From: Parasphingopyxis algicola | GTDB taxonomy: Bacteria; Pseudomonadota; Alphaproteobacteria; Sphingomonadales; Sphingomonadaceae | NCBI RefSeq assembly: GCF_013378075.1 | Contig: NZ_CP051131.1 | Span: 186,001 to 250,000 of the forward strand | Reading direction: 5' to 3' | Length of the DNA: 64,000 nucleotides | Shown here: positions 685 through 4,004 of the stretch, one piece after another | Layout: every line of letters starts with the position of its first letter | How positions within the stretch are numbered: position 1 is the stretch's first letter | Notes under the pieces: generated by a model | Seen by the model: the letters and a program-made list of their open reading frames with translations, nothing else | What the model was told of the DNA's origin: nothing | Database searches by the model: none | Translations under genes and position numbers: made by a program

Positions 685-2130
685 TCAGGCGGCTTTCAGT
701 ATCGGCGGCTGCACTTCGACCTCGATATCGGCCGGCAACGGAGGCTCGGCCCGAATGCCGTTGCGGATCGCCGTCAGCAGCGAAACCGGGTCGCAGCTGA
801 AGCGGACGAGCTGCGTCATGCCGGTCTCGGCCGCCTTCTGGGCCGCGAACTCGAACGCCGTCACTTCGGCGAGATGCGGAACGTCGCCATGGCGTTCCGA
901 GAAACGGGCGAAATTCCGGGCCTCGTCCGCCATGAACGGCTCGGGGCCGGTCTCCGCGAAATAGCGCAGCAGCAACGCGTCGAGCCCATCTTCGCCGAGC
1001 GACAGCCACAGATAGCGGGTCGTGAGCGGCAGCACATCGACGATACTGCCCCGCCGCGCCATCAGGATGAGGTCGACATAGATGTCGAACGCCGGATCGT
1101 CGTCAGGATGGGTCGGTTCGCCCCGGCAGCGCGCATCGATGCACCGCCGCAGATCGTCTTCCCATTCGGCCGGCGACGGATAGTCCGGCGGCGCCCGCAC
1201 ATCGATGGCTTCCGCCTCTTCGCCGACGGGCGAGGCCTGGCAATCGGCCGTCGGCGATTTCGCCGCGTACCAGATGGTTTGCAGCTGCCCGAGCAGATCG
1301 CGAATGTCCGCGACATCGATGTTCCGGGCATCGACATATTCCGGAATGATCTCGAAATTGATGGCCTTGAGGTTGGGAAGACCGGGCGCGGCGCGGCCGA
1401 GCAGTTCGATGACCTCCGGCTGCGGCAGGCCGCAATGCGAATCGAGCCAATAGCCGTTGTGATCCTGTCCGCCCGCGACATGGATTTCCCAGACATGATC
1501 GCGCGGCAATTGCGCGAGCACGGTTTCGGCATCGTCCCGCCCGTTGCGCTGGTTGCTCCAGATATTGTGCAGGTCGAGCAGGATCCCGCAATCGGCGCGG
1601 ACCGCGATCTCTCCCCAGAATGCGCCGTCCGGCATCTCGCCGGCGCGCGGCGCGAAATAGTTGACGCCGGTTTCGAACGCGAAGGGCAGGCCGAACAGGT
1701 CCTGCAACCGCTTGATGCGGTCGACGATCATCGCGACGCTTTCATGAGTTTGCGCCGGCGGCATCAGGAATCCCATGGCGCGCCGTTCATCCCCGTTGCC
1801 CGTCGACACGAAACTCGCATGGTCGCTCCACCAGGCGGGCTTCAGTATCGCCAGCGAGCGGCGCAGCGCATCGAGCTGGCGGTCGTCGAAACCGTTGGTC
1901 GAGGCGACCGGGCAGCCGACGCTGTGGACGAGCACCGACTTGCCGAGGTCGAGCAGCGAGGCGAACTTGGCTTCGTCGATCACGAACCGGCCTTCGCCCG
2001 GGCCGGACCGTTTGAACCAGAAGGCCTGGGGTTCGATTTCGAAGACGGTGCAGGCGTCGGACAGCTCTACCGCCAGGGCTTCGAGCCCTGGCAGGTAGAC
2101 GACCCCGACGCCCAGTGCGGGCGTGTTCAG
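685..2130 (-). CDS. DUF692/MNIO family enzyme with fused C-terminal partner-like domain
   Basis: Multinuclear non-heme iron oxidases (DUF692, TIM-barrel; MbnB, TglH, BufB) modify Cys or Asp residues of ribosomal peptides. Residues about 1-285 carry the expected ligand pattern: VLVHSVG (H69), SDHASF (D103, H104), FETGVNY (E153), LLDLHNIWSN (D186, N189), EIHVAGG (H217), LDSH (D230, H232) and NFEIIPE (E260). Residues about 310-481 form an extra domain that I do not recognise; by position it may replace the separate partner protein (TglI or DUF2063 type) of known systems. Homology to the family begins right at LNTPALGVGVVYLPG. The first in-frame ATG is at 2226, deep inside the upstream gene, so I prefer the CTG at 2130, which overlaps the upstream TGA by 4 nt. 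Substrate and product are unknown. Numbering here is from the CTG. Confidence 0.85.
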   Translation of the reverse strand: MNTPALGVGVVYLPGLEALAVELSDACTVFEIEPQAFWFKRSGPGEGRFVIDEAKFASLLDLGKSVLVHSVGCPVASTNGFDDRQLDALRRSLAILKPAWWSDHASFVSTGNGDERRAMGFLMPPAQTHESVAMIVDRIKRLQDLFGLPFAFETGVNYFAPRAGEMPDGAFWGEIAVRADCGILLDLHNIWSNQRNGRDDAETVLAQLPRDHVWEIHVAGGQDHNGYWLDSHCGLPQPEVIELLGRAAPGLPNLKAINFEIIPEYVDARNIDVADIRDLLGQLQTIWYAAKSPTADCQASPVGEEAEAIDVRAPPDYPSPAEWEDDLRRCIDARCRGEPTHPDDDPAFDIYVDLILMARRGSIVDVLPLTTRYLWLSLGEDGLDALLLRYFAETGPEPFMADEARNFARFSERHGDVPHLAEVTAFEFAAQKAAETGMTQLVRFSCDPVSLLTAIRNGIRAEPPLPADIEVEVQPPILKAA

Positions 2131-2354
2131 CCGAACTGTCCCGGCTGGACGTTGAGCTTCTCGTCGACGCGGAAGTCGCGGAAGATGTCCCAGCGGATAT
2201 CCCAGCCCGAGCAGCAGGCCAGGCATCCCAGCCGGCCGAGAATGTCCTTCTGGACCTGCTGGAACTTGTCGAAATCGTAGGCGACTTCGGCCGGCAGCGA
2301 CACCCGGACGGGTTTCGCCTGCGCGGTCAGACGGGAAATTTCCTTATGCTCCAT
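2127..2354 (-). CDS. Small Cys-cluster peptide, putative RiPP-type substrate of the adjacent MNIO
   Basis: A 75-residue protein starts at the ATG complementary to 2352-2354, behind a strong ribosome site (AAGGAGAGG, 4 nt spacing). An upstream in-frame ATG at 2441 would add residues that look like untranslated leader. It has no signal peptide or membrane segment. The N-terminal half (MEHKEISRLTAQAKPVRVSL) is polar and leader-like. The middle carries a Cys cluster, GRLGCLACCSGWDIRW (C44, C47, C48), followed by an aromatic and Asp-rich stretch, and it ends QPGQFG. Cys-containing precursors next to DUF692 enzymes are the known layout of methanobactin, TglA and bufferin pathways. That this is a substrate is inference; it could instead be a small metal-binding partner. 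It does not match any precursor class I know. Confidence 0.7.
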   Translation of the reverse strand: MEHKEISRLTAQAKPVRVSLPAEVAYDFDKFQQVQKDILGRLGCLACCSGWDIRWDIFRDFRVDEKLNVQPGQFG

Positions 2355-3875: not shown

Positions 3876-3972
3876 CGTCATTGCGAGCGTCGAAGGCGCG
3901 CGGCAATCCAGAGCAACGGGCGATGCGCTCGCGGCTCTGGATTGCTTCGTCGCTGCGCTCCTCGCAATGACG
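3876..3972. repeat. Palindromic intergenic repeat, copy 2 of 5
   Basis: A 97-bp inverted repeat runs from CGTCATTGCGAGCG to CTCCTCGCAATGACG, with inner arms GCAATCCAGAGC and GCTCTGGATTGC. It fills most of the space between the quinone oxidoreductase start and the radC stop. Confidence 0.85.
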
Positions 3973-4004
3973 AAATCTGGTCCGCGGGACTCAACACCGT
4001 CACC

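Follow-up and report, generated by a model that had tools for sequence, protein, structure and literature searches.

Two overlapping genes on the reverse strand of a 64,000-nucleotide stretch of the Parasphingopyxis algicola genome (contig NZ_CP051131.1, positions 186,001 to 250,000; here called the window, whose numbering is used throughout) probably form a self-contained modification unit of the multinuclear iron oxidase (MNIO) type. The upstream gene (2127-2354) encodes a mini-protein of 75 residues, and the downstream gene (685-2130) a dedicated oxidase, to which the partner protein that usually accompanies such enzymes has apparently been fused. The genes occur as a conserved pair, the fusion is present in every relative found, the residues that bind iron are retained, the extension is homologous to known partners, and the peptide is under selection. 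Relatives and their genomes are referred to by locus (L) and genome (G) numbers where they need to be distinguished.

The oxidase and its iron site

The oxidase is 481 residues long if translation begins at a CTG codon at 2130-2128, which is the probable start. The sole in-frame ATG, GTG or TTG nearby is the ATG at 2226, about 100 bp inside the peptide gene, and is probably not the start of the enzyme. The CTG fits the position at which relatives start, and gives a 4-bp overlap (CTGA) with the stop codon of the peptide gene; seven relatives can start their enzyme at exactly -4, with ATG, GTG or TTG. The initial annotation of this stretch had described a 75-residue peptide overlapping an MNIO (DUF692) gene, and this arrangement holds, the pair being kept in Parasphingopyxis marina and at 21 further loci.

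The enzyme matches PF05114 (E 2.2e-38, 132 bits against a curated cut-off of 25), as do all 17 enzyme members of the family. Among NCBIfam models it is nearest to BufB and HvfB, yet scores far under their cut-offs. AlphaFold2, run on the 17 members, gave a confident model (predicted local distance difference test, pLDDT, 89; predicted template modelling score, pTM, 0.87), in which residues 6-291 (1258-2115) form a TIM barrel. There follows a linker, residues 292-319 (1174-1257), which is mostly of low confidence (pLDDT below 50 at 293-310), then five helices at residues 320-436 (823-1173) and a strand-helix-strand tail at residues 440-473 (712-813). Some 190 residues, counting linker and C-terminal domain from residue 292, are outside the barrel.

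The nearest solved structure is TglH (8hci), with E 5.5e-33 in the sequence comparison and a template modelling score of 0.79-0.81, by target length, in the comparison of folds; 3bww and MbnB come next. The motifs LDLHN and HLAGG are common to TglH and the window enzyme. The iron ligands of TglH are H71, H107, E151, D184, N187, H216, D229, H231 and E258 (PMC10880893). The corresponding columns of the window enzyme are H69, H104, E153, D186, N189, H217, D230, H232 and E260. Eight of these align exactly with TglH, the ninth (E258 with E260) requiring a shift of two residues, and all nine columns are invariant in the 17 aligned enzymes. This bears out the ligand pattern noted initially in the window enzyme.

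The C-terminal extension

About 170 extra residues had been noted at the C-terminus of the window enzyme. The extension is a constant feature, present in 23 of 23 enzymes: 17 aligned at full length, and six from completed loci, which cover the whole enzyme profile and are 466-518 residues long. It had been taken as a new domain, in a system with no partner protein. This view does not survive profile comparison. A profile of the extension was aligned using hhalign with one of DUF2063-type partners, built from 41 open reading frames (ORFs) that resemble the partner encoded elsewhere in the same genome and were taken from loci with MNIO hits (two of them being the same gene). The match has a probability of 96.6 and E 6.5e-10 over 157 columns, and continues into the C-terminal part of the partners. 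Controls fail: E was 0.15-0.78 for 20 column-shuffled profiles, 0.05 for the reversed one and 0.51 when the barrel was set against the partners. In Pfam, PF09836 (DUF2063) was recognised in all seven partner ORFs tested, namely six from the profile, including the seed and the weakest member, and one from a Klebsiella plasmid described below. With the P. marina enzyme as tblastn query, the match to this plasmid extends from the MNIO gene into the separate downstream partner, which by itself reaches only E 0.12. Searches with the fused domain against plasmids (tblastn) found nothing, and a sequence search of the PDB with the extension gave nothing useful.

On these comparisons the extension, and in particular its helical region, is a diverged DUF2063/PME partner, of the PME-type 2 sort, fused to the barrel. 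The system would thus not be partner-less: the partner that seemed to be missing is fused on. The tail that follows the helices may be a truncated RiPP recognition element (RRE), where RiPP denotes a ribosomally synthesised and post-translationally modified peptide.

Distribution of the pair

A DNA pattern for the peptide motif, GCxxC[..][..]G[WFY]DI.[WF], made from the peptide alone, was run against the genomes of 84,980 species. It found 26 stretches. In 21 of them the peptide frame is open, and tblastn detects a relative of the enzyme just downstream of each. The condition under which the initial annotation would have given up its reading, namely that enzyme relatives never adjoin a GCxxCC peptide, thus did not arise. 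The remaining five (L089, L091, L095, L100 and L104) have no MNIO and no fitting peptide frame; they were taken as chance matches and dropped. One further locus (L137, Lysobacteraceae) came from a profile search of 149 genomes in the family to which Lysobacter spongiicola belongs. In total there are 23 loci, 22 of them outside the window and 21 beyond P. marina too. They are found in Lysobacter, Nitrosospira, Nitrotoga, Thiobacillus, Thiothrix and other Pseudomonadota, in Glutamicibacter, Rhodococcus and other Actinomycetota, and in metagenome-assembled genomes (MAGs) of Cyclobacteriaceae, Anaerolineales and Synechococcaceae, hosts which we take to span five phyla.

In the 20 genomes that lie outside Parasphingopyxis, matches to the peptide profile are confined to the pair locus (24 matches at E ≤0.01, two-domain and tandem forms being counted twice), and in all 20 there is an MNIO at the peptide locus, in an open frame of 467-724 residues. 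Peptide and enzyme identities are correlated across 15 loci (Mantel r 0.67, p 0.0001), also after removal of one of each of three close pairs (r 0.58, p 0.0002).

The pair is rare in the genomes sampled. It occurs in one of nine other Parasphingopyxis genomes, some of them incomplete; this is P. marina, in which the peptide is 75% and the enzyme 55-56% identical to those of the window. Selection acts on the peptide: its core has dN 0.03 and dS 1.16 between these two species, a single pair. The pair is present in 2 of the 149 genomes of the Lysobacter spongiicola family, and among 396 genomes of the order of the window only in its own genome and P. marina. A 19-member peptide profile gave a convincing match in 254 genomes of the phylum only in the genome of the window; two weak hits (L159, L160) have no enzyme relative near them and were set aside. 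Relatives with a different motif escape the pattern, so that these frequencies are lower bounds.

When one or two peptide sequences served as queries, 60 relatives and 289 genomes of the class, 396 of the order and 398 of the phylum produced no convincing match except P. marina. The weak hits mostly look unrelated, and a few (L043, L047 and L053) contain pieces resembling the motif, in frames that are short or interrupted by stops; by tblastn, no relative of the enzyme is present at any of the 29 loci L041-L069. Plasmids and phages yielded nothing for the peptide at E 0.1, and viral contigs no confirmed relative; a strict motif scan of the latter produced a single hit, antisense to a large phage-type ORF. 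A first scan of genome contigs with the enzyme as query gave 13 stretches and no confirmed relative.

The peptide

The peptide gene begins with ATG, immediately preceded by a strong Shine-Dalgarno-like sequence, AGGAGAGG (2359-2366). Nineteen peptides were aligned, leaving out the two-domain forms L102, L103 and L107, L099, whose start is cut off, and L137, which was found later. The N-terminal tail is variable (column entropy 2.73 bits). Residues 16-43 are well conserved (mean 1.20 bits), as are residues 56-69 (1.64 bits), and the lowest entropy (0.46 bits) is that of residues 44-55. These lie in the motif GCLACCSGWDIRW (residues 43-55, 2190-2228), which is the predicted region of modification. 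The search pattern required the first two Cys, G50, D52 and I53, and constrained residues 51 and 55 and, loosely, S49. The CxxC found in all 19 peptides was thus a requirement. The positions V18, P21, L39, L42 and R54 were free of the pattern, and are invariant in the 19 aligned peptides.

There are relatives in which the Cys residues were not selected. L137, obtained with a profile and in this way independently of the pattern, keeps both of the first two Cys and has DF in place of DI. L102, L103 and L107 each consist of two tandem copies of the domain, the first with GHxxCx[ST]G and the second with GCxxCCSG, and the first copy did not take part in the selection. It is a true copy: that of L107 is homologous to the peptide domain by profile comparison (E 1e-8), and the peptide profile itself detects the first copies (E 1e-8 to 2e-5). 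Of the GCxxCC cluster originally described, the first two Cys positions stand, while the third is not essential, C48 being replaced by Thr in four relatives (three of the 19 aligned, and L099) and by His in L137. The first Cys may also be His, in the first copies. The second is retained in every domain observed, and is therefore the first guess for the target residue.

A different target within the same motif has to be considered, namely an aromatic residue or the Asp of SG[WFY]D, as in those MNIOs that hydroxylate Phe or act on Asp. Such non-Cys chemistry has been described (PMC12257519). Aromatic residues occupy positions 51 and 55, and none of the 19 peptides lacks D52, although the pattern demanded or favoured these. 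We regard a non-Cys target as unlikely; on the alignment, a Cys is moderately favoured.

The peptide has no evident signal sequence, as had been noted for the window peptide: none of the 19 has a strongly hydrophobic N-terminus, with a crude hydropathy of 0.14-1.68 against 2.08 for the bufferin of the same genome. It looks like a small folded domain, conserved along its whole length, and is predicted to have a strand-helix-loop-strands structure. A structural search with this model found no match (best E 4.6), and a search of PDB sequences with the peptide profile gave nothing useful.

Gene neighbourhood

Five congeners have the gene order radC, quinone oxidoreductase, purB without the pair, with a spacing between oxidoreductase and purB of about 70-140 bp in three and about 1.26 kb in two. 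In these two the interval (L146 2475-3730; L151 223-1502) is other DNA with no MNIO match. Three further congeners could not be judged at this site. The pair is located between the oxidoreductase and purB in the window, and between radC and purB in P. marina. From the congeners that lack it at this position, it would appear that the pair has been gained or lost as a unit. As a separate observation, the quinone oxidoreductase of the window is flanked by two copies of a dispersed repeat of about 100 bp (2655-2757 and 3876-3973; GTCATTGCGAG...CAATCCAGAG). Matches to the second copy are numerous in several genomes of the genus (G001, G005, G006 and G008 among them), and the first was judged by eye to be of the same kind.

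Apart from the pair, no gene family is common to more than three of the 22 loci compared. This comparison was made at the level of BLAST with 216 ORFs of at least 60 residues, in loci that are mostly 8 kb, and so would miss distant homologues and genes farther away. The families that are common are neighbours of the two Parasphingopyxis pairs, neighbours of two Rhodococcus pairs, one in L088 and L101, one in L098, L106 and L112 (which Pfam identifies in L106 as two-component proteins), and a frame that runs antisense to the peptide. Forty neighbouring proteins compared with Pfam (30 in relatives, including some later-fetched loci, and 10 around the window) gave no recurring function and no match to a lantibiotic-dehydratase-type family.

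These results bear on the possibility that this is an ordinary RiPP. Residues 1-42 would then be recognised as a leader, oxidation would fall on the Cys motif, and a small metallophore would be set free and secreted with the help of a protease and an exporter whose genes are mostly unlinked. The absence of exporter and protease genes noted originally is borne out for the ten proteins tested around the window, and fails for some relatives. A 1061-residue ATP-binding cassette (ABC) transporter gene is directly upstream of the peptide in L142 (3182-6367), a Corynebacteriales MAG, and a trypsin-like/nuclease protein is encoded downstream in two Rhodococcus loci (L096 by Pfam, L105 by homology). 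These genes favour a secreted product. Set against them are the lack of any family shared beyond three loci, the conservation of the region after the motif, and the lack of a double-Gly site ahead of the motif in the 19-peptide alignment, and a secreted metallophore of this kind seems rather improbable.

In a further reading, the peptide is a regulator or small subunit of the enzyme, and the fused MNIO acts on some other molecule. The peptide is conserved over its full length, as a folded protein would be (the entropies of residues 16-43 and 56-69 given above), no cleavage or export gene is common beside it, and in 20 genomes each peptide locus has one fused enzyme and no more, which would also suit a subunit. 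However, the gene order, size and Cys content match those of known or proposed MNIO precursors (PMC12452194), and the role of partner is already filled by the fused domain. Moreover, L088 (2992-3563) has two tandem peptide genes ahead of one fused enzyme, which is easier to understand for a substrate. A regulator or subunit is thus a distinctly unlikely explanation.

Proposed function

On the basis of these observations, we hypothesise that the peptide is the likely substrate of the oxidase. The upstream gene would give a cytoplasmic mini-protein of about 75 residues bearing CxxC[CTH]SG[WFY]D[IF]R, and the downstream gene a multinuclear iron oxidase with a DUF2063/PME-type partner fused at its C-terminus. 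Because the genes overlap, their translation is presumably coupled, so that the peptide would be made just ahead of its enzyme. The fused domain would capture the peptide and stabilise the active iron state of the barrel, as HvfC, a separate protein, does for HvfB (PMC13419390). The iron centre would then oxidise the CxxC loop of the motif, most likely at the second Cys, to generate what may be a metal-binding or redox-active site. The product would stay inside the cell, which we judge to have about an even chance of being so. In support of this proposal, an engineered HvfB-HvfC fusion is more active than the co-expressed pair (PMC13419390).

A more specific form of the proposal is that the peptide is a folded protein that is kept whole, in which the action of the MNIO on the CxxC loop creates a permanent metal or redox site derived from the protein itself. 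The peptide would then be an intracellular cofactor protein, and the two-domain forms, with their HxxC domain first and CxxCC domain second, would be built-in pairs. We put this forward tentatively, as possible rather than probable.

A number of points count against the proposed modification unit. Modification of the peptide is a prediction from sequence. The conservation of the motif is largely circular, because the search pattern demanded those positions, the two Cys being largely built in. The correlation between peptide and enzyme identities would also arise by shared descent, with no interaction. Conservation of the peptide along its whole length is unlike a leader with a variable core, and its model is of moderate confidence (pLDDT 72.7, pTM 0.54). 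The peptide family gave nothing beyond chance in Pfam (best E 0.1), NCBIfam (none) or PHROGs (0.039). PF09836, the mark of PME-type 1, had no match at E 1 in the 17 fused enzymes, so the extension would be PME-type 2-like at most. Finally, the RRE of known partners binds leaders, and a complete RRE fold is not evident in the model, which has only a strand-helix-strand after the helical domain.

MNIOs generate unusual metal-binding groups, and the majority depend on a separate partner; the engineered fusion was made in order to obtain an active, homogeneous complex (PMC13419390). A natural single-chain MNIO and partner, with a substrate encoded by one gene, would be a ready-made system in which to test how the partner activates the iron centre. 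Should the product prove to be a whole folded protein that is kept in the cell, MNIO chemistry would be extended from secreted copper peptides to protein-derived cofactors.

Comparison with known systems

In the passages of PMC12452194, PMC13419390, PMC12710340 and PMC12257519, no MNIO fusions or extra domains are named beyond MovX, ChrH, MNIO/nitroreductase and the engineered HvfBC. The accessible literature gave no example of a natural MNIO-DUF2063 fusion. In PMC12452194 partners were sought among separate ORFs following the MNIO, and a fused partner could therefore have been missed. MovX is similar to the window enzyme in that the MNIO is extended at its C-terminus by a further domain and is not accompanied by a separate partner (PMC12452194, PMC13419390). 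The two differ in the nature of this domain, which according to its description is a winged helix-turn-helix or RRE in MovX and which in the window enzyme is mainly DUF2063-like and helical.

TglH, of the pearlin (3-thiaglutamate) system, is the best solved match by sequence and fold, and its partner TglI is a separate protein of PME-type 2 (PMC12452194). However, the Cys that TglH modifies is C-terminal and is put there by a PEARL ligase, while the Cys residues here are internal and no such ligase is present among the neighbours tested.

The bufferin and oxazolin systems (BufABC, HvfABC) have the same order of precursor, MNIO and DUF2063-type partner, but Sec signals are found on their precursors, and their partner, which has a full RRE, is encoded by a gene of its own. 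The window system differs on both counts, with no Sec signal by crude hydropathy and no separate DUF2063 gene, the partner being fused. The P. algicola genome also has an ordinary bufferin operon (L037 5672-8056; G000:C1 ~1,325,700-1,328,100), consisting of a DUF2282 peptide with five Cys, an MNIO, a separate DUF2063 partner and DoxX. The Klebsiella pneumoniae plasmid mentioned above, of type IncFII (L070 2507-4972), has an operon similar to this one, encoding an SGKC-type peptide with a hydrophobic N-terminus, a DUF692 protein, a DUF2063 partner and DoxX.

Two groups of precursors proposed in silico are also to be compared. Adjamnio-IV peptides are 119-146 residues long, with 5-6 Cys and a CxxCC motif; their layout is given as 'Adjamnio-IV - MNIO', and a partner gene is not among the genes listed (PMC12452194). 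The window peptide has 75 residues and 3 Cys, and only the two-domain relatives come near (L102 has 130 or about 150 residues, depending on the start, and 5 Cys). Adjamnio-IV may be the two-domain form of the peptide.

We presume Lysobacter spongiicola and Novilysobacter spongiicola to be one species. The genome of Lysobacter spongiicola DSM 21749, which contains locus L111, has PF05114 in two places, one of ordinary length and one fused. Adjamnio-7, named in 2025 (Antoine et al. 2025, PMC12452194) and represented by WP_078758616 of Novilysobacter spongiicola, has no signal peptide, has CxxC, and is found beside MNIO cluster 7. The passages available mention no MNIO-DUF2063 fusion, HxxC two-domain form or function for it. 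The window family resembles it in having no evident signal peptide, in its CxxC and in its position beside an MNIO. It is probably the same family, and the description of the pair as a new RiPP system was to that extent too strong. It is worth adding that the absence of a signal peptide correlates with partners of PME-type 2 (PMC12452194), and the window system fits this pattern.
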